The position numbers and the translations under genes are program-made. Under the pieces are notes generated by a model. The model was not told the origin of the DNA. It worked only from the letters and a program-made list of their open reading frames with translations, and ran no database searches. DNA of 34,301 bases from a bacterium (GTDB lineage Bacteria > CG2-30-53-67 > CG2-30-70-394): the NCBI GenBank assembly GCA_024278555.1, contig JAJRSX010000033.1:1-34301 (forward strand). The letters are read 5' to 3'. Numbering within the stretch: the stretch's first letter is position 1; each line of letters opens with the position of its first letter. Shown one piece after another: positions 6,295 to 31,261 of this stretch.

Positions 6295-8601
6295 CTACTG
6301 GGCGCCGCCCGACAGTTTGTCCCACATACGGCGGGCCTCGGCGGCGTTGAGGGTCATCAGGTAGTCACGTATCTGGCGGATCTGGACGAAGTTTGCCTCG
6401 GCGGTCTCGTTGGTGTAGTCGAGCTTCGGGTTGCCGTTGGCGTCCAGCACCTCGTCGCCGTTCTCGTCTTCGAGTTCGTCGAAGAAGAAGAAGTTGGGCA
6501 TCCGTGTCCCCGGCTGGAACCCTTGGGGATCGGTGAGCCACTCGTCGATCCACGCCGGCCGCAGGCGTGTCTTCCCCAACGCCAGGTTGGGGGCGAGCTC
6601 GTTGGGCGACTTGTCCTTCGGAATCTCCTCGCCCAGGACGTGGCACTTGAGACACTTGAAGCTCATCAGGAGCTTCTTGCCCTTGGCCACGGAGACCGGA
6701 TCGAGGTGGCCGGGATCGACACCGTAGAACGGGTGGTCCTTGTCTTCGAGGGCAATGAAGTAGTCGGAGAGGGTCTCCACCTCGCTGTCCGAGAGGCCGA
6801 AGGTGGGCATCCGCACGGTGAGCCACGGCCTGAGGGTGATCGGCTTCTGGATGAACCCCTGGACCCAGAGGGGCTGGACTTTGCGCCCTTCGCCGTGGAG
6901 GACCGGCGGCGCCAGGGCCTTGTCCTCACCCGCGTAGTAGGCACGGAGGTGGCCGGAGGAGCGCGGTGCCCCCGGGTCGATCTCGTGGCAGCCGCGGCAG
7001 TTGTAACGGGCAAACATCTCGCGGCCACGGGAGATCGCCTGGCGCTGTTGGTCCATCTCCACATGGAAGGCGGCCGGATAGACCCGCTTCTTGAGGCTGG
7101 TGACGTAGACGGTGAGGGCCTCCACCTCCTCTTGGGAGAAGTGGAAGTCCGGCATCTTCAGGAGCGCCGGCTGGAACTGGCGCGGGTCCTCCAGCTTCAT
7201 GCGTACGAAGTTGGCTACGTACCGGTGGCTCTGGACCCCCTCCTCCTCGTCCAGCTCGATCATCTCCTCCTTCTTCTCTTCGAAGGCGAGGCGGAAATAC
7301 TGCTTGTCCCCCTCGAAGGTCAGCTCGGGACCGTAGAAGGCGCGCCCCTCGAAGCCGGCGATCGGGTGGCAGCCGGAGCAGTTGAACCATTCGATCCGCT
7401 CCTTGCCCCGCTCCACGAGGGCGGCGTTGTCGGGCTCCGGGGCGAGATCGACCTTGGTGACGGTGCCGTCGCCCTTTTGCTGAAGATAGGCGGCGATCGC
7501 CTCCGCCTCCGTCTCGGAGAGGCGGAGGTCGGGCATGGTGGTCTTGGGATCCTGTCCCTTCGGGTTGAGAACCCACTGCTGGATCCAGCGGCCGTTGAGC
7601 TTGTCGCCGACTCGCGACAGGTCGGGGCCGAAGTTGCGTTCGCGGACCGACGGATCGAGGCCCGCCTCGTCCACCACCGTGGCGTCGTCGATGTTGTGGC
7701 AGCCGAGGCAGCCCACCGAGAGGACGAGCTCCTTGCCCTTCGCTACCTTGGCGGCCGAGGTGGCGACGTCACCGGTAAGATTGTCCCCCCCCTGCTTTGC
7801 CAGGTAGTCGCGCGCCGAGGCGACGAGGTAGGAGGTGATCGCCTTTACGTCGTCGTCGGAGAGGCCGAAGTTGGGCATGTAGGTCTTTTTCAGGTAGCTG
7901 CCCGGATCCTTGAGCCAGCCGGCGAGCCAATCGAGCTGCATCTTGTTGGGGATCATCCGCAGGTCGGGGCCGGGCAAACGCTCCAACTGCTGACCCTTCA
8001 CCGGGTGGCAGCCGAGGCAGCCGACGCGGTCAAAGAGGATCTCGCCTCGAGCGTAAAGAGAGCCGCCTTCGAGAGAGGCGCCGCGCTCGTGGCACTGGAC
8101 GCAACGTGACTGGACGAGCTCCTTGTTGAGGACCGGGTTGCGCCAGTTCTCTCTGTGGCCGTGGGCGCCTTGGAGATCGACGGAGATCCCCACCCCCTCG
8201 TGGCAGACGGTGCATCCGAACTTGTCCGGCGGGTGGTTGCTGATCTCCGGATGGAAGGTGAATGGCTGGGGGGCATCCTTGAAGCGGGGATCCTCCACCG
8301 CCAGGTGGCAGGTCTCGCACCGGTCCGTGCGATCGAGGGTGGGGAGATACCGCTGGACGATCCCCGGCTTGAAGTAGACCTTCGCTGGATCGCCCCCGGC
8401 GAGCTCGATGAGCAGCTGCTTGTACGCCTCCTGGTAGGGGTTGTACGGGTGGGCCTGGTCCTTCACCACCTGCCCCCAGAAGAGGGCGAAGACCACGAGG
8501 CCGGTGAAGAGGAAGAGGGGTCGCCACGCCTTCACCTTCAACAGGACGGCGATCACCGCCAGGACTACGATCGCAAGTACGATTCCCACACTCGTGCTCA
8601 T
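6295..8601 (-). CDS. Membrane-anchored octaheme c-type cytochrome of the R/b complex cluster
   Basis: The 768-residue protein has two N-terminal hydrophobic helices (about 6-22 and 28-46) and then a large periplasmic part with eight CXXCH heme sites, at Cys 95, 130, 167, 195, 298, 408, 535 and 650. The last five heme sites head cytochrome-c-like modules, each followed by a likely Met axial ligand in MPNFGLS, MPDLRLS, MPDFHFS, MPTFGLS and MPNFFFF. The first three form a compact N-terminal multiheme segment. A GGGAGAGG Shine-Dalgarno site precedes ATG 8601. It follows the two cytochrome b genes, so it probably takes electrons from the Rieske/cytochrome b core in place of cytochrome c1 or f. Exact orthology is unknown to me. 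Confidence 0.92.
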   Translation of the reverse strand: MSTSVGIVLAIVVLAVIAVLLKVKAWRPLFLFTGLVVFALFWGQVVKDQAHPYNPYQEAYKQLLIELAGGDPAKVYFKPGIVQRYLPTLDRTDRCETCHLAVEDPRFKDAPQPFTFHPEISNHPPDKFGCTVCHEGVGISVDLQGAHGHRENWRNPVLNKELVQSRCVQCHERGASLEGGSLYARGEILFDRVGCLGCHPVKGQQLERLPGPDLRMIPNKMQLDWLAGWLKDPGSYLKKTYMPNFGLSDDDVKAITSYLVASARDYLAKQGGDNLTGDVATSAAKVAKGKELVLSVGCLGCHNIDDATVVDEAGLDPSVRERNFGPDLSRVGDKLNGRWIQQWVLNPKGQDPKTTMPDLRLSETEAEAIAAYLQQKGDGTVTKVDLAPEPDNAALVERGKERIEWFNCSGCHPIAGFEGRAFYGPELTFEGDKQYFRLAFEEKKEEMIELDEEEGVQSHRYVANFVRMKLEDPRQFQPALLKMPDFHFSQEEVEALTVYVTSLKKRVYPAAFHVEMDQQRQAISRGREMFARYNCRGCHEIDPGAPRSSGHLRAYYAGEDKALAPPVLHGEGRKVQPLWVQGFIQKPITLRPWLTVRMPTFGLSDSEVETLSDYFIALEDKDHPFYGVDPGHLDPVSVAKGKKLLMSFKCLKCHVLGEEIPKDKSPNELAPNLALGKTRLRPAWIDEWLTDPQGFQPGTRMPNFFFFDELEDENGDEVLDANGNPKLDYTNETAEANFVQIRQIRDYLMTLNAAEARRMWDKLSGGAQ

Positions 8602-8675
8602 CTGCCTCTCCCGATGGCCGTGGCCCTGCCACGGCCTCGCTGTTCACACAACGGACCCACCCCCCCCTTCCCGCT

Positions 8676-9197
8676 CTAATGGACCGGCCACGCCTCCCAG
8701 AACCAGTAGAAGTCCCAACTGGGGCCACGCAGGAAGGTCCCCACGATGATCAGGCCGAACCAGAAGGTCAGCCCCATGGCGAAGAGGATATTGACGGTCC
8801 GCCGCTTCGGGTGGAACCAGACGCCGATGCCGTCGCGCGTCCGGTCGAGGTACGGGACCGCGAGGAGCAAGACGGCGAGGAGGGTCGGAAAGACGATGCC
8901 GCCGAGGACCGGCGGTCCCCAGGAGAGGGCCTCCTGCAGGCCGAGGAAGTACCACGGCGCCTTCGCCGGGTTGGGGGTGTTCTTCGGGTCCGCCATCTCC
9001 TCTAGGGGGGCATTGAAGAGGATCGACATCCCCATGATGACCGTTAGGACGATGAGGAAGAGGACCACCTCGCGGAAGAGGAGGTGGGGCCAGCTCATCA
9101 CCATCTCGTAAGGGTCTTTCTGGATCGCGGGGGTCTTCCCCTTCACCAGGTTCATCAACCCGTACGACTTCATGTTGTCGATCTGCTTCTCCGCCAT
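8676..9197 (-). CDS. Cytochrome b, C-terminal (subunit IV-like) half of a bc-type complex
   Basis: The 173-residue protein corresponds to the C-terminal half of cytochrome b, as in subunit IV of b6f complexes. It has about three membrane helices (LLFREVVLFLIVLTVIMG; PVLGGIVFPTLLAVLLLAV; NILFAMGLTFWFGLIIVG). The quinol-oxidation (Qo) loop reads NPAKAPWYFLGLQE, so the PEWY motif of mitochondrial and b6f proteins is APWY here. Loss of the Glu is seen in some low-potential, menaquinol-type complexes. GGAG lies upstream of ATG 9197. It follows the b6-like gene by 45 bases. Confidence 0.93.
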   Translation of the reverse strand: MAEKQIDNMKSYGLMNLVKGKTPAIQKDPYEMVMSWPHLLFREVVLFLIVLTVIMGMSILFNAPLEEMADPKNTPNPAKAPWYFLGLQEALSWGPPVLGGIVFPTLLAVLLLAVPYLDRTRDGIGVWFHPKRRTVNILFAMGLTFWFGLIIVGTFLRGPSWDFYWFWEAWPVH

Positions 9198-9242
9198 GGC
9201 TCGCTCCGTCGATGACCAACCGCTACATGGTGATGGGGACCG

Positions 9243-9992
9243 CTATCGCAGCGGGATATTGCTCTCGTCCGGCCGCGCCAGGCCGCCGTCCTTCCGGATG
9301 CGCCAGAAGTGCACCACCATCAGCAACCCGCAGATGGCGGGCAGGCCGAAGACGTGCATCACATAGAAGCGGATCAGGGTGTTCTGGCCGATCTGGGTGC
9401 CGCCGAGGACCAGGTAGCTTGCCCCGGCGCCCATGATGTCCGCCGGCGGCGTCGTCCGGATCAGGTTGGAGACGATGGTGATCGCCCAGTAGGCGAGCTG
9501 GTCCCACGGTAGGAGGTAGCCGGAGAGGGAGAGGAAGAGGGTGATGATCAACAGGATGATCCCAATGACCCAGTTGAACTCCCGCGGCGCCTTGTAGGCG
9601 CCGGTAAAGAAGACCCGTGCCATGTGTAGGAAGGTGAAGAGGACCATGGCGTGGGCGGCCCACCGGTGCATGTTTCTGAGCACCACCCCAAAGCTCACCG
9701 CGAACTCCAAATCTTTCATGTCCGCGTAGGCGCGGTGCACCTCCGGGACGTAGTAGAACATCAGCAAAAAGCCGGTGAGGGTGAGGAGCAGGAAGAGGTA
9801 GGCGAGGATGAGGCCGAGGCCGAAGGTGGCGGAGACCTTCAGGCTCCGCTTGAAGACCTTCACCGACTGGATGTGGAGGAAGACGTTCTGGAACATCACC
9901 TCCGCACGGTTCCGCGGGTTACTCGGGTAACCGTGACGGAAGACGGACTTCCACACCCGGTTGGCAAACAGTAGGTCGGCTACGCGGCTCAT
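9243..9992 (-). CDS. Cytochrome b6-like subunit (heme-binding N-terminal half of cytochrome b)
   Basis: The 249-residue integral membrane protein has the four-helix, diheme cytochrome b core. The heme-ligand histidines are visible as paired sites in RNMHRWAAHAM and YVMHVFGLPAICGLLMVVHFW. The segment SGYLLPWDQLAYWA is the usual GYxLPWDQ signature near the Qi/heme region. The split from the C-terminal half resembles b6f and many bacterial menaquinol complexes. ATG 9992 is preferred to the GTG at 10007 because AGGAGGAAGAGG lies directly before it. Neighbours are the Rieske protein upstream and the subunit IV-like protein downstream. Confidence 0.95.
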   Translation of the reverse strand: MSRVADLLFANRVWKSVFRHGYPSNPRNRAEVMFQNVFLHIQSVKVFKRSLKVSATFGLGLILAYLFLLLTLTGFLLMFYYVPEVHRAYADMKDLEFAVSFGVVLRNMHRWAAHAMVLFTFLHMARVFFTGAYKAPREFNWVIGIILLIITLFLSLSGYLLPWDQLAYWAITIVSNLIRTTPPADIMGAGASYLVLGGTQIGQNTLIRFYVMHVFGLPAICGLLMVVHFWRIRKDGGLARPDESNIPLR

Positions 9993-10045
9993 CCTCTTCC
10001 TCCTCACTCCTCTGCGGCACGGCCCCCGTCGGCAGGGGCGTACCC

Positions 10046-10546
10046 TCAGATACTCAGCTTGTAGTCGGCGGTGACCACCTTGTTTTGATCCACCACCAGG
10101 CGACCGTCATTGCCCACCGTTACCTCGTACCACGGCAGCGGCCTCGGCGCCGGACCCGCCACCTTCACCCCGAGGGTGTTGAACTGGCTGCCGTGGCACG
10201 GGCATTCCCAGCGATCATCCTTCTGCACCCACTTCGGGGTGCACCCCATGTGGGTACAGATGGCGGAGACCACTCGATACTCGTTGTCCCGCAGACCGTA
10301 GACCCCGCGGACCAGGAAGATGCGCTGGTCGGCGATAAAGTTGACCCCCACCGGGTACTCGGCGGGCGGGCCGATCTTGTACCGCTTCGGCGGCTCGTAG
10401 AGGACGTTCGGCCACATGTAGCGGAACGAGCCCACCAGGGCGGCGCCAAAGGTCCCGGCCATCGCCACCCCACCCACGAGGGTGAAGAAGTCCCGGCGGG
10501 AGAACTGGTCGTAGCTGAACTCCGGCTCGACGGTGTGATCAGACAT
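10046..10546 (-). CDS. Rieske [2Fe-2S] iron-sulfur protein, Tat-type anchor
   Basis: The 166-residue protein carries the two Rieske cluster motifs, CTHMGC and CPCHGSQF, giving two Cys and two His ligands. A twin-arginine signal (SRRDFFTLVGG) precedes a hydrophobic anchor, consistent with Tat export of a folded cluster protein. The start at 10546 has GGAGGT 8 bases upstream and overlaps the end of the oxidoreductase gene by 8 bases, so translation is coupled. An in-frame reading back to 10996 lies in the oxidoreductase gene and is rejected. It passes electrons from quinol at the cytochrome b Qo site to the cytochrome c or copper acceptors encoded downstream. Confidence 0.96.
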   Translation of the reverse strand: MSDHTVEPEFSYDQFSRRDFFTLVGGVAMAGTFGAALVGSFRYMWPNVLYEPPKRYKIGPPAEYPVGVNFIADQRIFLVRGVYGLRDNEYRVVSAICTHMGCTPKWVQKDDRWECPCHGSQFNTLGVKVAGPAPRPLPWYEVTVGNDGRLVVDQNKVVTADYKLSI

Positions 10547-12392
10547 CGAGAGCCACCTCCTTTTCCTCGTACCGCTCCATGGTAATGGCGTCGGTGGGGC
10601 AGCGGCGGACACAGAGGTCGCAGCGCACGCACCGGGCGTCGTCCTTGATGATCGCCGCCCCGTCGGGCAGTGGCTCCCCGGCGTAACGCGCCGCCAGGAG
10701 CTGCTCCATGTCGGAGCCGGAGGCGGCGTTGATCTGCGCGACGTCGATGATCGACAGGCAGTTCTCCGGGCAGACATCGATACAGCCGCCGCACAGGATG
10801 CAGGTGGCCGACGAGAAGACGGTGTTGTAGTTGCACCGCAGACACCGGTTGCCCTCGGCGCGTGCGTCTGCCTCGGTGTAGACCGCCTCCACCTCTTTCC
10901 AGTCGTGGCGATCGTCCAGCGACAGGGTGAGCGGATCGACCCGCGGCGAATAGTCGTAGTCCTCCGCCATGGCGAAGGCCTCGGGGCGCTTGGCATCGAG
11001 GTCGATGATCGGGCTCATGTGGAAGTTGGGGACCTCGGTGGAGGACCACAGCTTGATGATCCGCGACCGTCCCTGGATCTGCTCGTCGATGTGGCGCGCC
11101 GCCCGGTTCCCCTCGGCCACCGCGTCGATCACCAGGCGTGCCCCGAAGGCGGCGTCGCCGCCGCAGAAGACCCGCGGGTTGGATGTCTGCATGGTCTCCG
11201 GGTTGGTCTCGATGTTGCCGCGCGGCCCGACCGTCACCCCGTCTTCCTCGGTGAGGAAGGAGGTATCGATCCCCTGGCCGATGGAGAGCACGCAGGTGTC
11301 ACACTCGAAGACCCGCTCCGACCCCTCGATGTACTGGGGGTTGAACTTGCCCTCGGCGTCGAAGATCGAGGCGACCTGCTTCATCCGCACCCCGGTCAGG
11401 TGGCCGTTTTCACCGACGAACTCCAGGGGCCCCCAGGAGTTCTCCAGGGTCGCCCCCTCCTCCAGGGCCTCCTCGAGCTCCCAGTCGAAGGCGAGCATTC
11501 CGTCGCGCGGCTCCAGACAGACGATCTTGACCTCCTTCACCTCCGGTTTCACCCGGATGGTGGTCCGCGCCACGTCCATGGCTACGTTGCCGCCGCCGAT
11601 GATCAGGACCCGTTCGCCGAGGTCCTCGATCGGTCTGTAGAGCGCCGCGTCGCGGAGGAACGGAACGGCGATATGGATCCCCTTCAGGTCGTTGCCGGGG
11701 ATCGGCAGGCCGCGGCCGATGTGCGCCCCGATGCCGAGGAAGATCGCCTCGAAGCCGTCGTCAAAGAGCGACTGGAGGGTAAAGTCCTTGCCGCACTCCC
11801 GGCCGTAGTGGATCTTCACCCCCAATAGCTCCACCGCCGCCACCTCGTTCTTGATCAGCTCGCGCGGCAGGCGGTACTCGGGGATCCCTACATAGAGCAT
11901 CCCGCCGGGGACCTCCAGCCGCTCGTAGACGTGGCACTCATAGCCGAGGCGGGCGAGGTCGTGGGCGCACGAGACCCCGGCCGGGCCGGCGCCGACAATC
12001 GCCACCTTGTGGCCGTTGGGGGTCGGATCGGTGGAGCCGGGGGCGGTGGAGAAGGAGAGAGACTTCTTCAGGTTGCGGGTGATCTCGACGCCATACTTCT
12101 CCGTCACGTACCGCTTCAGGGCGCGGATCGAGATGGGGCGATCGGAGACCACCCCCTTGCGGCACGACTGCTCGCACGGGTGGGAGCAGGTGCGGCCGCA
12201 GACCGAGGCGAAGACATTGGGGCCCCGTGCCACCGCGTAGGCTCGCTCGAAGTCACCCTCGGCGATCGCCTGGACGTACTCCCCGGCGCGGGTATTTACC
12301 GGACAACCGTCGGAGCAGGAGAAGTTCCCGAAGAGGTACTCCTGATCGACGATCTTGAGGTCGAATTTTCTGAGGTTGTAGGCCGGTGCCAC
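10539..12392 (-). CDS. GltD-like NAD(P)/FAD oxidoreductase with N-terminal Fe-S and C-terminal 2[4Fe-4S] ferredoxin domains
   Basis: The 617-residue protein resembles the glutamate synthase small subunit (GltD)/NfnB flavoprotein group. An N-terminal Cys-rich domain (Cys 26, 30, 65, 69, 73, 77) precedes the FAD motif GAGPAG (about 134-139). An NAD(P)-binding motif GGGNVAMDVA lies near 266-275, and GGDAAFG (411-417) is the second FAD contact. The C-terminus is a dicluster ferredoxin with CxxCxxCxxxCP at 531-541 and 588-598. No glutamate synthase large subunit is present. The gene overlaps the Rieske gene by 8 bases and heads the cytochrome bc cluster, so it is likely the NAD(P)-facing module of that complex. 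GTG 12392, with GAGGGGG upstream, is preferred over TTG 12455. Confidence 0.9.
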   Translation of the reverse strand: MAPAYNLRKFDLKIVDQEYLFGNFSCSDGCPVNTRAGEYVQAIAEGDFERAYAVARGPNVFASVCGRTCSHPCEQSCRKGVVSDRPISIRALKRYVTEKYGVEITRNLKKSLSFSTAPGSTDPTPNGHKVAIVGAGPAGVSCAHDLARLGYECHVYERLEVPGGMLYVGIPEYRLPRELIKNEVAAVELLGVKIHYGRECGKDFTLQSLFDDGFEAIFLGIGAHIGRGLPIPGNDLKGIHIAVPFLRDAALYRPIEDLGERVLIIGGGNVAMDVARTTIRVKPEVKEVKIVCLEPRDGMLAFDWELEEALEEGATLENSWGPLEFVGENGHLTGVRMKQVASIFDAEGKFNPQYIEGSERVFECDTCVLSIGQGIDTSFLTEEDGVTVGPRGNIETNPETMQTSNPRVFCGGDAAFGARLVIDAVAEGNRAARHIDEQIQGRSRIIKLWSSTEVPNFHMSPIIDLDAKRPEAFAMAEDYDYSPRVDPLTLSLDDRHDWKEVEAVYTEADARAEGNRCLRCNYNTVFSSATCILCGGCIDVCPENCLSIIDVAQINAASGSDMEQLLAARYAGEPLPDGAAIIKDDARCVRCDLCVRRCPTDAITMERYEEKEVALDV

Positions 12393-12540
12393 GGATTTTT
12401 CCCCCTCATGCGCCGAACGGGCGCGGACGCTACCACGGGGATAGGAGTCAATCAATGGAAAGACGACATCTTCACTAGCCTCTTGCGTCTATTCCAATTT
12501 CCGGCCGCTTTCGGCCGCTCCTCGGTGGTCTCCACGCCGG

Positions 12541-25924: not shown

Positions 25925-26299
25925 TCAGAAGGTGAGGACGATGTCCGCCTCGATCGCCATGTCGAGCATGGCGGCGGCACCCACCACCTCGTGCACCGCG
26001 TCGATGCAATCGTCCGGCTCCATCCCCACGAGGTCCAGGGCCTGGTGGCAGACCATCAGCTTTACCCCACCCTCGATCGCCTGCTACAGGAAGGAGGAGA
26101 TTGCCGCCCCACCCTCCTTGATCCGGGTCCGCTCGGCAGCGCCCTTGCGGACGATCGAAGCCCCCTGCATGGTGAAGACCACGGTGGCGTCCATGTCCAT
26201 GGCCGCGGCGGTGGTGGCGATGAAAAACGGAGCGGGGATTCGCTCGGGAGTCTTCAGGCCGCTGGTCTGGATGATGAGCACCTTCTTCTGATCTTCCAC
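25925..26299 (-). pseudogene. DsrE-family protein interrupted by an in-frame amber codon
   Basis: The frame starts with GTG 26299 behind a consensus AGGAGGT and reads QKKVLIIQTSGLKTPERI, ATTAAAMDMDATVVFTMQGA, AERTRIKEGG. A TAG then occurs at codon 72 (26086-26084). The same frame continues without further error as QAIEGGVKLMVCHQALDLV and VHEVVGAAAMLDMAIEADIV to a TGA at 25927-25925. Both halves match one DsrE/DsrF-like (sulfur-relay type) protein of about 123 residues, with the conserved Cys in MVCHQAL after the stop. TAG is an ordinary stop for at least five other genes here, so general recoding is unlikely. It is probably a recent nonsense mutation or a sequencing/assembly error. Confidence 0.75.
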
Positions 26300-26427: not shown

Positions 26428-26673
26428 CTACGACTTCTTTACGTACCCAACGTACTCACCCGGCTCCTCCTCCTCCACCCGGATACACGAGTTGCCGGTC
26501 TGCTGGCACCAGGCCGGCAGGTCCTTGAGAAACCCCTTGTCGTCAGAGGAGACCCGCAGCACCTGCCCGGGTGCCAGCTCCTTCATCTTCGTCGCGGTGG
26601 CGTAGATGGGCATGGGGCAGCACATGCCGAAGGTGTCGAGCTCATCGTCGGCGGTGATCGCCGACCCGCTCAT
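26428..26673 (-). CDS. tusA: TusA/SirA-family sulfur carrier protein
   Basis: The 81-residue protein has the family core DTFGMCCPMPIYATATKMKEL: the CPxP motif (CPMP) supplies the persulfide-carrying Cys, and a second Cys precedes it. TusA-like proteins carry sulfur between desulfurases, rhodaneses, DsrE-type proteins and acceptors in tRNA thiolation or sulfur oxidation. Its start overlaps the iscU stop by 4 bases (ATGA type), so the two are translated together. The downstream gene is the interrupted dsrE-like one. The identity as TusA proper rather than a paralog is inferred from context. Confidence 0.88.
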   Translation of the reverse strand: MSGSAITADDELDTFGMCCPMPIYATATKMKELAPGQVLRVSSDDKGFLKDLPAWCQQTGNSCIRVEEEEPGEYVGYVKKS

Positions 26674-27083
26674 GAGGCGGCCACCTCACCCTCTTCGGCG
26701 CCGCTCGCCACCCGCTCCTTGTAACTCTTGATCGCCTCGTGGAGGGCGTCGGCGGCGAGGGTGGAGCAGTGGATCTTGTGCGGCGGGAGCCCGTCGAGGG
26801 CCTCCTCGATGTCGCGATTTTTCAGGTTCTCCGCGTCCGCCAGGCTCATCCCCTTGACCATCTCGGTCATCATCGAGCTGTTGGCGATGGCGGCGGTGCA
26901 GCCGAAGGTCTTGAAGGAGGCGTCGACGATCTCGTCGCCCTCCACCTCCAGGTAGATATCCATCATGTCGCCGCAGGCGGGGCTGCCCACGGTGCCCACG
27001 GCGTTTGCATTTTCCAACTCGCCCATGTTGCGGGGGTTCATGAAGTGGTCGATCACCTTGGCGCTGTAGTCGGTGTGCTGCAT
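26670..27083 (-). CDS. iscU: IscU/NifU-type Fe-S cluster assembly scaffold
   Basis: The 137-residue protein contains the three cluster-binding Cys in GSPACGDMM, TFGCTAAIANSS and HKIHCSTLA, with the expected Asp in ACGD. It resembles the short NifU-like scaffolds with NPRNMGE near the N-terminus. It receives sulfur and iron to build [2Fe-2S] clusters. AAAGGAGT lies 6 bases upstream of ATG 27083. The order iscR-iscS-iscU-tusA holds, but hscA, hscB, iscA and fdx are absent, so this is a minimal isc locus. A 173-bp gap with repeat copy C separates it from iscS. Confidence 0.93.
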   Translation of the reverse strand: MQHTDYSAKVIDHFMNPRNMGELENANAVGTVGSPACGDMMDIYLEVEGDEIVDASFKTFGCTAAIANSSMMTEMVKGMSLADAENLKNRDIEEALDGLPPHKIHCSTLAADALHEAIKSYKERVASGAEEGEVAAS

Positions 27084-27256: not shown

Positions 27257-28468
27257 TTAACGAAAGTAGTGCTTCCTCTTGCCGTAGATGGGCGACATCT
27301 TGCGCAGGGTCTCCACGACCCTGGGGATCTCCTCCAGGGCGTCGTCGATGTCGGCGTCGGTATTGTCGATGCCGAGGGTGATGAGGATGGAGCCCTGGGC
27401 GAGGACCTCATCGACGCCGATCGCGTGCAGCACCTGCGACCCCTTCAGGGCCATGGAGGCGCACGCCGAGCCGGACGCCACGGCAATCCCGTCGAGGTCG
27501 AGCCTGACCAGGGTCCCCTCCCCCTCGATCCCCTCGATGGAGATGTCGAGGTAGCCGGGGAGACGCTCGGTGGGGTGGCCGTTGACCTGCACGTTCTCGA
27601 TCCGTTCAACGAGGCCGCGTTCGAGACGGTCGCGCAGGCCGCTGACCCGCGCCATCCGCGCCTCCATCTCGGCGGCGGCCCGCTCGGCGGCGACCCCGAG
27701 GCCGACGATCGCCGGGACGTTCTCGGTGCCGGCGCGCTTGCCGTTCTCCTGCACGCCACCGTGGATCAACGGGGTCAGGCGAACTCCCTTGCGGGCATAC
27801 AGCGCCCCGGCCCCCTTGGGACCGTAGAAGCGGTGCGCGGTGAGCGACAGCAGGTCGACGCCGAGGGCGTCGACGTCCACCGGGATCTGGCCGACCGCGT
27901 AGGTACCGTCCGCATGGACGACGATCCGCTTGTTGATCGCCTTCACCAGCCGTGCCACCTCGGCCACCGGCTGCAGGGTGCCGACCTCCTGGTTGGCGAG
28001 CTGGACGCTCACCAGGACCGTGTCGTCGCGCACCGCATCGGCCACTGCCTGCGGATCGACCCGGCCGTAACCGTCGACCCCCACGAAGGTGGTCTCGAAG
28101 CCGAGCTTCTCCAGGAACTTGACCGAGTGGTGGACCGCGTAGTGCTCCACCTCGGTGGTGACGATGTGCTTGCCGCGCCGCTGCGCCGCCAGGGCCGCCC
28201 CCTTCACCGCCAGGTTGTTCGCCTCGATGCCGCCACTGGTGAAGGTGATCTGGGTCGCCGGCGCGTGGATCAGGGCGCCGACCTGCTCCCGCGCCTGCTT
28301 GAGGGCGTGGGCCGGGCCGCTCCCCTGGGTGTGGAACGACTGGGGGCTGCCGTACTCCTCCGACAGGTAGGGAACCATCGCCTCCACCACCTCGGGCAGG
28401 GGGCGGGCGGTGGCCGCGTGGTCCATGTAGATGCGACGCGGGGCGGCAGTGGTCTGGGTCATAGCCAT
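27257..28468 (-). CDS. iscS: IscS/NifS-like protein (aminotransferase class V) with Arg in place of the PLP lysine
   Basis: The 403-residue protein has the cysteine desulfurase fold and length: IYMDHAATARPLP at the start, EVEHYAV (His109, the H104 position of E. coli IscS), and the sulfur-accepting loop ASGSACASMAL with Cys336. The lysine that forms the Schiff base (K206 in E. coli, in SGHKIYGPKG) is Arg213 here, in TAHRFYGPKG. Two other cofactor contacts differ: the DATQ segment is DGTY (Gln to Tyr190), and the Asn-Asn-Glu segment is Asn-Gln-Glu (Gln160). Classic desulfurase activity is thus doubtful. GGAGGAG precedes ATG 28468. It is cotranscribed with iscR upstream and iscU downstream. Confidence 0.9.
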   Translation of the reverse strand: MAMTQTTAAPRRIYMDHAATARPLPEVVEAMVPYLSEEYGSPQSFHTQGSGPAHALKQAREQVGALIHAPATQITFTSGGIEANNLAVKGAALAAQRRGKHIVTTEVEHYAVHHSVKFLEKLGFETTFVGVDGYGRVDPQAVADAVRDDTVLVSVQLANQEVGTLQPVAEVARLVKAINKRIVVHADGTYAVGQIPVDVDALGVDLLSLTAHRFYGPKGAGALYARKGVRLTPLIHGGVQENGKRAGTENVPAIVGLGVAAERAAAEMEARMARVSGLRDRLERGLVERIENVQVNGHPTERLPGYLDISIEGIEGEGTLVRLDLDGIAVASGSACASMALKGSQVLHAIGVDEVLAQGSILITLGIDNTDADIDDALEEIPRVVETLRKMSPIYGKRKHYFR

Positions 28469-28538: not shown

Positions 28539-29003
28539 TCAGCGAGGTGCCCCCAGGCTGATGGGGTGAGCCGCGGTGGCCGGCGGGGAGGGGGTCGCGG
28601 CGAGCTCGTCCATGGTCTTCTTCTCCAAGATCCCGCGGACCGCCTCCTGGACCTCCTGCCACACATCCTGGCCGCCGCAGGAGGAGGTGCATGCCATCGC
28701 CTCTCCGCCGCCGGCGTGGGGGTCGGTGCAATCGTTAAAGACGATCGGCCCCTCGACGCACTCGACCACCTCCAGGAGGGTGATCTTGGCCGGCGGTCGC
28801 GCCAGGGAGTAGCCGCCGCCGTGGCCGCGGGTGGAGCGCACCAGACCGGCACGGGCGAGGTTCTGAAAGATCTTCGCGAGGAAGCTGTCCGGCACCTCCA
28901 TGGCCGCGGCGATGTCCGCCACCAGGACCACCTCACCGCGCCGCTGGCGGGCGAGGTAGATCAGCCCGCGCATCGCATAGTCTCCAGCCTTGGTGAGTCG
29001 CAT
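28539..29003 (-). CDS. iscR: Rrf2-family transcription regulator, IscR-like
   Basis: The 154-residue protein starts MRLTKAGDYAMRGLIYLARQ and has an Rrf2 winged helix (SFLAKIFQNLARAGLVRSTRG, GGYSLARPP). Three Cys in NDCTDP, ACTSSC lie where IscR binds its [2Fe-2S] cluster, but spaced 13 and 4 residues apart rather than the six-residue steps of E. coli IscR. It likely senses Fe-S status and controls the isc genes downstream, with sat divergent. GGAG precedes ATG 29003. The tail after residue 130 is Pro/Ala-rich. Confidence 0.88.
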   Translation of the reverse strand: MRLTKAGDYAMRGLIYLARQRRGEVVLVADIAAAMEVPDSFLAKIFQNLARAGLVRSTRGHGGGYSLARPPAKITLLEVVECVEGPIVFNDCTDPHAGGGEAMACTSSCGGQDVWQEVQEAVRGILEKKTMDELAATPSPPATAAHPISLGAPR

Positions 29004-29231
29004 CGCTTATCTCCGGATAAACCGGACTTCATTCATCCGATTGGTCCGCAGACCTTAACGGCACACCGGCGGCAAGGCAAGAGCCGTGTAGGGGTGTGGG
29101 CGAAGATGGCAATAACGCCAGCAGGTTGACGCCGACACTCCCCCCATGCTTCCCTCTCGCGGCCCTTATTGTTCAATCGGTGCGGAGGTGCGTCTTCGGC
29201 GACCCACCCACCTCATCTAAGGAGAAAACAC
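29004..29231. promoter_or_regulatory. Divergent iscR/sat intergenic region with candidate Rrf2 site
   Basis: The 228-base region must hold promoters for both iscR (leftwards) and sat (rightwards). Near iscR, 29012-29045 has CCGGATAAACCGGA and an interrupted inverted motif CGGA-N9-TCCG. This is a reasonable Rrf2/IscR operator candidate, not a consensus match. Near sat, AAGGAGA lies 7 bases before its ATG. No confident -35/-10 boxes were assigned. Confidence 0.4.
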
Positions 29232-30449
29232 ATGGCCCTGGTAAAACCGCACGGTGGTGGTGATCTCAAACCCCTACTTCTGGAAGGCGATGCTCGGAAG
29301 CAGGAGCTGGAAAAGGCGAAGGGGCTCACCCAGGTGAAGATGACCTCCCGGGAGACCGGCGACCTCATCATGCTGGGGATCGGCGGCTTCACCCCGCTCG
29401 ACGGCTTCATGACCAAGGCCGACTGGCAGGGGGTGTGCGACACCTACCAGATGGCCAACGGCCTCTTTTGGCCCATCCCGATCACCCTCTCCACCACCCA
29501 GGGTAAGGCGGACTCCATCTCCGAGGGCGAGGAGATCGCCCTGGTCGACGAGGAGAGCGGCGAGATCATGGGGACCATGAAGGTCACGGAGAAGTACACC
29601 ATCGACAAGGCCCACGAGTGCCAGTGCGTCTTCAAGACCACCGACATGGAGCACCCGGGGGTCGCCAAGGTGATGGAGCAGGAGGAGGTGAACCTCGCCG
29701 GCCCGGTGAAGGTCCTCTCCGAGGGGAACTTCCCGACCGAGTTCGAGGGGATCTACATGACCCCGGCCCAGACCCGCGCCATCTTCGAGGAGAAGGGGTG
29801 GAACACGGTGGCGGCCTTCCAGACCCGCAACCCGATGCACCGCTCCCACGAGTACCTCGCGAAGATCGCCATCGAGATCACCGACGGGGTGCTGATCCAC
29901 CAGCTCCTCGGCAAGCTCAAGCCGGGCGACATCCCGGCGGACGTGCGCCGCGACGCGATCAACTCGCTCACCGAGAACTACTTCGTCAAGGACACCTACG
30001 TCCAGGCGGGCTATCCCCTCGACATGCGCTACGCCGGCCCCCGCGAGGCGCTCCTGCACGCCCTCTTCCGCCAGAACTTCGGCTGCTCGCACCTCCTGGT
30101 GGGGCGTGATCACGCCGGCGTCGGCGACTACTACGGCCCCTTCGACGCCCACAAGATCTTCGACGAGATCCCCAAGGGCGCCCTGGAGACCCAGGCCCTG
30201 AAGATCGACTGGACCTTCTACTGCATCAAGTGCGACGGCATGGCGTCGATGAAGACCTGCCCGCACGGCAAGGAGGACCGGATGCTCCTCTCCGGCACGA
30301 AGATGCGGAAGATGCTCTCCGAGGGCGAGGACGTCCCGCCCCAGTTCTCCCGTCCCGAGGTCGTCGAGATCCTCAAGGCGTACTACGCCTCCATGAAGGA
30401 CGAGGACAAGGTGGAGATCAAGCTCCACAAGGCGGCCACGGGCGCGTAA
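29232..30449 (+). CDS. sat: ATP sulfurylase (sulfate adenylyltransferase), dissimilatory homo-oligomeric type
   Basis: The 405-residue enzyme interconverts ATP plus sulfate and APS plus pyrophosphate. Family motifs are present: the substrate-binding [13 protein letters not shown] (QxRN, HxxH), [14 protein letters not shown], and a Cys/His zinc cluster [18 protein letters not shown]. The single-polypeptide Sat form, not CysDN, is used in dissimilatory sulfate reduction and, in reverse, in sulfur oxidation. No apr or dsrAB genes are in the window, so the direction is undetermined. ATG 29232 has AAGGAGA upstream, and the upstream in-frame start at 29169 is rejected. A strong terminator follows. 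It is divergent from iscR. Confidence 0.96.
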
Positions 30450-30590: not shown

Positions 30591-30824
30591 ATGGCGACGA
30601 TGAACTTCAGCGTGCCGGAGACGGTCAAAAAGGCGTTCAATGAAACCTTCGACAAGCAGAACAAGAGCGCCATCATCGTCCGGCTCATGATCGAGGCGAT
30701 CGAGGCGGAACGACAGAAGGCGCGTCGTGCCGCCCTCATCGACCGGCTCCTCGCCCTTCGCGGCAGCGTCCAACCGGTGAAGCCGGCGGAGGTCAAGGCT
30801 GCCCGACGCGCGGTGCGTCCTTGA
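30591..30824 (+). CDS. Ribbon-helix-helix antitoxin of a PIN toxin pair
   Basis: The 77-residue basic protein begins MATMNFSVPETVKKAFNET, then SAIIVRLMIEAIEAER, the beta-strand/helix/helix pattern of CopG/Arc-type ribbon-helix-helix proteins. The C-terminal part (about 45-77) is rich in Arg, Lys and Ala and probably wraps the toxin. A palindrome lies 23 bases upstream, and its stop overlaps the toxin start by 4 bases. Function as the DNA-binding antitoxin is inferred from fold and arrangement. ATG 30600 is an alternative start. Confidence 0.85.
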   Translation: MATMNFSVPETVKKAFNETFDKQNKSAIIVRLMIEAIEAERQKARRAALIDRLLALRGSVQPVKPAEVKAARRAVRP

Positions 30825-31261
30825 GCCCTCTCGTGGTGGACGCCAGCGTCGCGGTGAAGTGGGTGCTGCCGGAGATGGATGGGGAGGCCGATATCGACCA
30901 GGCCATGGCGCTTCTCACCGCCTTCCAGCGGGGTGAGGTGGGGCTCCTCCAGCCGCCCCACTGGCTCGCCGAGGTCGCCGCCGTGATCGCCCGCCTGCGC
31001 CCCACCCTCGCGGCGGAAGCGACCACCCTCTTTCACGCCCTCGACCTTCCGGTGGTCGATGACCTCGACGTCTATCTGCGCGGCTGCGCCCTCGCCACCG
31101 AGCTTCACCGCCACCTCTTCGACACCCTCTACCACGCCGTGGCCCTCGAAAGGGGGGCCACGTTTATCACCGCCGACGCCTGCTACTGGCGCAAGGCAAG
31201 CTCCCAGGGGGCGATCCAACTCCTCCGGGAGCTGGATCTCGATGGCGCGGGCGCCCCGTGA
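30821..31261 (+). CDS. VapC-like PIN-domain ribonuclease toxin
   Basis: The 146-residue protein has the PIN acidic residues in order: Asp in PLVVDASVAVKW, Glu in HWLAEVAAV, Asp in HLFDTLYHAVA and Asp in FITADACYW. VapC toxins cleave RNA, commonly tRNA or rRNA, when the antitoxin is lost. TTG 30821 overlaps the antitoxin stop (TTGA), which gives translational coupling; a GTG at 30833 is a possible alternative. It is intact, unlike the unrelated PIN fragment near 5182. The target is unknown. Confidence 0.87.
   Translation: MSPLVVDASVAVKWVLPEMDGEADIDQAMALLTAFQRGEVGLLQPPHWLAEVAAVIARLRPTLAAEATTLFHALDLPVVDDLDVYLRGCALATELHRHLFDTLYHAVALERGATFITADACYWRKASSQGAIQLLRELDLDGAGAP

Follow-up and report, generated by a model that had tools for sequence, protein, structure and literature searches.

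An IscS-like protein that lacks the PLP-binding lysine is encoded in an isc operon of the window (the whole stretch of 34,301 nucleotides analyzed here), its gene is maintained by purifying selection, and Lys-less proteins of this kind recur across genomes with tusA repeatedly next to their genes. The gene is called iscS* in what follows and its product IscS*. On balance, we favor the reading that IscS* is a pseudo-desulfurase, which would receive sulfane sulfur from TusA onto its loop cysteine and pass it on to IscU. What had been a single odd protein, the IscS of Archaeoglobus fulgidus, thereby becomes a recurrent and phylogenetically broad module with TusA as a candidate sulfur donor.

IscS* has lost the catalytic lysine and further pocket residues

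The gene and the codons that distinguish it, with residues numbered as in E. coli IscS for the replaced positions, are as follows.

27257..28468, minus strand: iscS*, putative IscS-like pseudo-desulfurase of 403 aa without Lys206 and Arg354 (translation, residue table, dN/dS, AF2 model)
28226..28228, minus strand: codon 81, ATC; Ile replaces Thr76, motif SGGIEA (residue table, codon comparison with a congener)
27989..27991, minus strand: codon 160, CAG; Gln replaces Asn155, motif ANQE (translation, codon comparison with the congener)
27899..27901, minus strand: codon 190, TAC; Tyr replaces Gln183, motif DGTY (translation, codon comparison with the congener)
27830..27832, minus strand: codon 213, CGC; Arg replaces the PLP Schiff-base Lys206 (translation; same codon in the congener, L117)
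27461..27463, minus strand: codon 336; sulfur-accepting loop Cys kept, equivalent to Cys328 (invariant in 251 of 251 distinct relatives; loop 335-339 disordered in the model)
27383..27385, minus strand: codon 362, CTC; Leu replaces the substrate-binding Arg354, motif GSILITLG (residue table, codon comparison with the congener)

The replacements of Lys206 (CGC at 27832-27830), Gln183 and Asn155, together with the retention of His109 and Cys336, had been proposed in a sequence-only reading of this DNA, and all are borne out by the translation; the arginine codon recurs in the congener. The changes at Thr76 and Arg354, as well as a DsrE-like frame downstream of tusA, go beyond that reading. Arg213 sits in the motif TAHRFYGPKG, where the adjacent His205 is kept, and the protein also retains the catalytic cysteine of the mobile loop (Cys336, motif SGSAC), His109 (equivalent to His104) and Asp187 (equivalent to Asp180). 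The AF2 model (pLDDT 89.1) has the class V aminotransferase fold of a class I desulfurase and can be overlaid on NFS1 and on the IscS proteins of E. coli and A. fulgidus with a TM score of about 0.9 by query length, reaching 0.97 by target length against 4EB7; its Cys loop (335-339) is disordered, like that of class I desulfurases. IscS* nevertheless scores below both NCBIfam equivalog cut-offs (NifS, 462.9 versus 530.75; IscS, 351.8 versus 643.2). Close relatives in the PDB (9wep to 9wfy, named 'cysteine desulfurase') show few differences from one another and, among the matches listed, keep the lysine.

In E. coli IscS, Arg354 binds the substrate carboxylate, and the K206A and Q183E variants have no desulfurase activity (PMC9978102). 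With Lys206, Gln183, Asn155, Thr76 and Arg354 replaced together, and K206A inactive by itself, IscS* is nearly certain to lack desulfurase activity. The absence of PLP is a softer prediction, because E. coli K206A is inactive and yet still holds some PLP (PMC9978102). That retention, and the presence of Asp180 and His104 in IscS*, would be compatible with PLP held non-covalently and with a slow or different PLP reaction; given that Thr76, Asn155, Gln183 and Arg354 are also changed, and that K206A and Q183E are without desulfurase activity, we regard this as very improbable.

iscS* is conserved in an operon with iscU and tusA

The genes surrounding iscS* are listed below.

28539..29003, minus strand: iscR-like Rrf2 regulator gene, upstream of iscS* (PF02082, 129.9 bits)
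26670..27083, minus strand: iscU scaffold gene, with Cys37, Asp39, Cys63, His105 and Cys106 all present (PF01592, site table, dN/dS 0.14)
26428..26673, minus strand: tusA sulfur carrier gene, motif GMCCPMP, sharing 4 bases with the end of iscU (PF01206, 74.5 bits; search of the organism's own genome)
25925..26299, minus strand: frame of the DsrE family, located downstream of tusA and interrupted by an in-frame TAG at 26086-26084 (frame reading; copy in the congener intact)
29169..30449, plus strand: sat, ATP sulfurylase gene, divergent neighbor beside iscR and outside the operon (NCBIfam NF003166, above cut-off)

Pfam matches for its members support the previously noted iscR-iscS-iscU-tusA block, which runs in the order Rrf2/IscR, IscS*, IscU, TusA and is followed by the DsrE-family frame. 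An IscS* with 91% identity is encoded in a congener, Nitrospirae bacterium CG2_30_70_394 (record MNYW01000026.1; genome G001, L007, same contig as L117), in which the codons for Arg213, Tyr190, Leu362 and Ile81 are identical and that for Gln160 carries only a silent change (CAG to CAA). Between the window and this congener, dN/dS is 0.15 for iscS*, 0.14 for iscU and 0.34 for tusA. The gene is therefore under purifying selection, in agreement with the earlier supposition that it is maintained. The window comes from a draft assembly and the neighboring DsrE frame carries an in-frame stop, features that would suit an assembly error or a decaying gene; however, an independently assembled genome has the identical Arg codon, the gene is full length with a dN/dS of 0.15, and the same losses occur in class-level relatives. 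The congener and the dN/dS value rule out a sequencing error or a pseudogene, and we attach a negligible probability to either.

The TAG at 26086-26084 in the DsrE frame corresponds to GAC (Asp) in the congener, whose DsrE copy is intact and matches PF13686/PF02635. Because the rest of the window frame is intact and, with a dN/dS of 0.08, strongly conserved, the TAG is either a nonsense mutation of very recent date, a mistake in the assembly or a site of read-through.

A search of the organism's own genome (completeness given as 100) for a second canonical IscS, NifS or SufS, as the sequence-only reading had suggested, found SufS on contig C40 as the sole other cysteine desulfurase; a second IscS was rejected, the match on C190 being SerC. 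A second tusA lies on C139. On C162 (L297, G000), dsrA, dsrB, a DsrL-like oxidoreductase gene, a second dsrA and dsrEFH occur together in one region, which indicates that the organism has a dissimilatory sulfur metabolism. The second dsrA has no adjacent dsrB, and a duplicate dsrA is unusual.

Two further observations concern the window outside the operon. Downstream of sat lies an ORF for a PIN-domain (VapC-like) protein (30591-31261, plus strand), preceded by a small overlapping ORF, with which it likely forms a toxin-antitoxin pair. At 6295-12455 (minus strand), genes for a cytochrome b, a multi-domain cytochrome c and a GltD-like pyridine-nucleotide oxidoreductase with ferredoxin domains follow one another, constituting an unusual bc-type respiratory cluster.

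Lys-less IscS proteins occur in several types

The comparison set comprised 251 distinct IscS-type proteins, 63 Lys-less and 188 Lys-containing, with the Lys-less cases representing a sample rather than a census. Gln183, His205, His104, Asp180, Cys328 and Arg354 are present in all 188 Lys-containing relatives and Asn155 in 187 of them, so that the replacement of Gln183, Asn155 and Arg354 in IscS* exceeds chance variation. Arg354, in particular, is replaced in 54 of the 63 Lys-less proteins. In class-level relatives of the window organism (G002, G003, G004, G006), His replaces the lysine, Met replaces Gln183, and Asn155 is likewise changed to His.

Two archaeal types were named after the characterized protein that each resembles. 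The Archaeoglobus type, represented by ten Lys-less genes found on searching 295 genomes from the archaeal phylum that includes Methanothrix, has the lysine replaced by Asp, Gln183 by Ala and His205 by Asn, and its members are 64-77% identical to the crystallized A. fulgidus IscS. In the Methanosarcina type, from large Methanosarcina-like genomes, Thr takes the place of the lysine, His that of Gln183 and Asp that of His104, and Arg354 is kept. The partner IscU of this type is a protein of 211 aa with an extra C-terminal FeS_assembly_P domain, and these loci agree with the published description of M. acetivorans IscS1/IscU1, in which the lysine is missing (PMC7585200). The idea that the 24-kDa IscU1 of Methanosarcina is an IscU-TusA fusion was rejected, given that the extra domain is FeS_assembly_P and that TusA is encoded by a separate gene.

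A verrucomicrobial type (L072, L075, L081, L083) replaces Lys by Arg and Arg354 by Ile and has the order iscU-iscS* without tusA; a gene for an Mrp/ApbC-like P-loop ATPase was read by eye downstream in L072, L075 and L081, and the genomes concerned also carry Lys-containing copies. In a separate case (L150, G069:C186), Lys is replaced by Ala, His205 by Pro and Arg354 by Val; an upstream TusA-like ORF has a degenerate CP motif, and neighboring genes resemble those for a NIL-domain ferredoxin and an HdrC-like protein.

tusA is linked to most Lys-less and almost no Lys-containing iscS genes

Linkage was defined as the presence of tusA within 1.5 kb of the iscS gene. Across the 251 distinct proteins, tusA lies near 55 of 63 Lys-less genes versus 1 of 188 Lys-containing genes, and this sole exception lies at a locus (L206/L222) that also contains a Lys-less copy. 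By type, linkage was found for 37/40 bacterial, 9/10 Archaeoglobus, 9/9 Methanosarcina and 0/4 verrucomicrobial Lys-less genes, so that the Lys-less genes with no tusA within this distance include the whole verrucomicrobial branch, and also L047. The tenth Archaeoglobus-type gene sits on a 4.2-kb contig; in the other nine, tusA is upstream. In all 55 linked cases tusA and iscS* are on the same strand, 54 of the 55 TusA proteins have the CPxP motif, and the partner IscU proteins at these loci keep their active site. The TusA of the Methanosarcina type shows weaker similarity to the TusA model, yet it matches PF01206 at 79 bits, and DsrE is encoded nearby, like tusA, in all nine of its loci. DsrE genes are often found near other Lys-less loci too; because many flanks extend over only 1.5 kb, both DsrE and tusA may be undercounted.

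The association was first spotted on eight Lys-less loci with flanks, where tusA always adjoined iscS*/iscU and never canonical iscSU, and it recurred in later samples used as tests; nearly all Lys-less genes from two phyla, that of G049 (4 genomes) and that of G018 (30 genomes), adjoin tusA. Of the genomes that carry both kinds of gene, 15 have tusA beside the Lys-less copy only, the sixteenth (G281) being that of the shared locus. A bias of the TusA model towards Lys-less loci was rejected, as a plain motif scan gave the same result: in this independent scan, none of the 44 canonical loci flanked by 4 kb or more in both directions carried tusA. The raw Fisher p (1.7e-45) was set aside as evidence, since the sequences are related and relatedness inflates raw counts. 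No report of TusA next to a Lys-less IscS was found in the open-access literature, which is the part of the literature that was searched.

In two class-level relatives, a gene for a Pyr_redox_2 flavoprotein with weak similarity to the central domain of sulfide dehydrogenase (FCSD) lies just upstream of iscR-iscS*-iscU-dsrE-tusA (L120:7329-8585, L121:6886-8142); its product is a candidate sulfide-oxidizing source of sulfane sulfur.

The lysine was lost more than once

In a tree inferred with IQ-TREE (LG+C20+F+G4), the bacterial Lys-less clade that includes the window IscS* (support 100/99) and the Archaeoglobus Lys-less clade (100/100) are both nested among Lys-containing proteins, and well-supported branches force two losses. 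IscS* and A. fulgidus IscS thus fall in two separately supported clades rather than in one, and the tree rejects the grouping of all Lys-less IscS as a single family. When the Methanosarcina type is added, the best tree shows three Lys-less clades, the third split not being forced by well-supported branches. The phylogeny therefore suggests that disabled IscS arose about three separate times, with two independent losses firmly forced. Gene order, with tusA upstream in archaea and mostly downstream in bacteria, also argues against a single transferred operon. The independent-pairs test has 2-3 pairs only, and a phylogenetic sign test would need more independent origins than these two or three to become significant.

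A proposed relay from TusA to IscU

In the scheme that we favor, TusA would receive sulfane sulfur from sulfurtransferases of the DsrE type or from dissimilatory sulfur metabolism, TusA would persulfidate the loop cysteine (Cys336) of IscS*, and the persulfidated IscS* would dock on IscU and deliver the sulfur for [2Fe-2S] assembly, its loop cysteine perhaps also being lent as a ligand. The flow from TusA to IscS* would reverse the E. coli direction, in which sulfur passes from IscS to TusA, and would provide an ISC route that does without cysteine. E. coli TusA docks at Cys328 of IscS with the two cysteines about 4 Å apart (PMC2854127), and sulfide alone persulfidates a DsrE protein, while DsrEFH hands sulfur to DsrC (PMC3397948); put together, these precedents make a path from DsrE or another donor through TusA and IscS* to IscU the likeliest scheme. 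Feeding by TusA, as surmised in the sequence-only reading, is strongly, if circumstantially, supported by the gene linkage seen in three Lys-less clades, although linkage is not chemistry. Against such a relay stand the verrucomicrobial branch and L047, which are without tusA, the Arg354 kept by the Methanosarcina type, the interrupted DsrE frame of the window, and the finding that E. coli TusA and IscU, whose sites around Cys328 are different but mutually exclusive, never bind IscS together (PMC2854127).

The main rival is the published view of A. fulgidus IscS, in which the loop cysteine would only ligate the nascent [2Fe-2S] cluster on IscU, free sulfide would be the sulfur source and TusA would do other work, such as sulfur trafficking for tRNA or cofactors. 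That protein, in which Lys is replaced by Asp, is reported to be inactive as a desulfurase and, in the crystal, to ligate the cluster on IscU (PMC7585200, citing Pagnier et al.); the Lys-less Archaeoglobus IscS named in the sequence-only reading is thus real. Its relatives share the loss of Lys, Gln183 and Arg354, and the dissimilatory sulfite reductase genes in the window organism's own genome mean that sulfide may be abundant. Ligation alone, however, does not predict the strong and repeated linkage to TusA, which is present in the Archaeoglobus-type clade itself, and we consider this view possible though unlikely for IscS*; the verrucomicrobial branch, without tusA, may work in this manner.

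A lesser chance is given to IscS* as a docking platform fed by SufS or another donor, or as a mere regulator, with sulfur running to TusA for tRNA thiolation or Moco. The direction from IscS to TusA is that of E. coli (PMC2854127), and the genome does encode a desulfurase in SufS. Yet iscU directly adjoins and, at these loci, keeps all its active-site residues, an unlinked donor would still be required for the first sulfur step, and desulfurase-competent IscS copies never adjoin tusA, except at the shared locus L206/L222.

Returning to the relay from TusA, its generalization would be that a cysteine-independent ISC machinery evolved about three times by conversion of a desulfurase into a persulfide relay from TusA (and DsrE) to IscU, drawing on environmental or respiratory sulfur; we judge the odds of this to be even. 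If true, the Fe-S clusters of some microbes are built from a sulfur relay and not from cysteine. How anaerobes of sulfide-rich settings that do not use cysteine desulfurases obtain the sulfur of their Fe-S clusters is a question that has been raised for methanogens (PMC7585200), and the module makes it testable with three small purified proteins in vitro and in the genetically tractable Methanosarcina in vivo.

Comparison with known systems

The IscS of A. fulgidus (PDB 4EB5, 4EB7 and 4HVK; 4R5F is the D199K mutant) resembles IscS* in combining an IscS fold with loss of the Schiff-base lysine, replacement of Gln183 and Arg354, a kept loop cysteine and an iscU partner, and close relatives of it have tusA adjacent, as does the window iscS*. 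It differs in belonging to a separate clade of independent origin, in its changes at the lysine and the neighboring histidine (Lys to Asp and His205 to Asn in Archaeoglobus, Lys to Arg with His205 kept in the window) and in the order tusA-iscS*-iscU of the Archaeoglobus type versus iscS*-iscU-tusA. M. acetivorans IscS1 (of the pair IscS1/IscU1, MA0808/MA0807) is likewise reported to miss the catalytic lysine (PMC7585200), and Methanosarcina-like loci have tusA and DsrE nearby, like the window; unlike IscS*, the Methanosarcina type keeps Arg354, has lost His104 and is paired with an IscU bearing the additional C-terminal domain. PMC7585200 says of the four clustered genes only that their function is unknown, and TusA is not mentioned there.

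The IscS, TusA and IscU of E. coli belong to the same three protein families as those of the window and interact physically through Cys328; in that species IscS works as an active PLP desulfurase, with TusA as a sulfur acceptor, whereas the opposite flow is proposed for the window. The DsrE-TusA sulfane-sulfur relay of sulfur oxidizers shares with the window its DsrE- and TusA-type carriers, and differs from the proposed scheme in having no known link to IscU through an inactive IscS.
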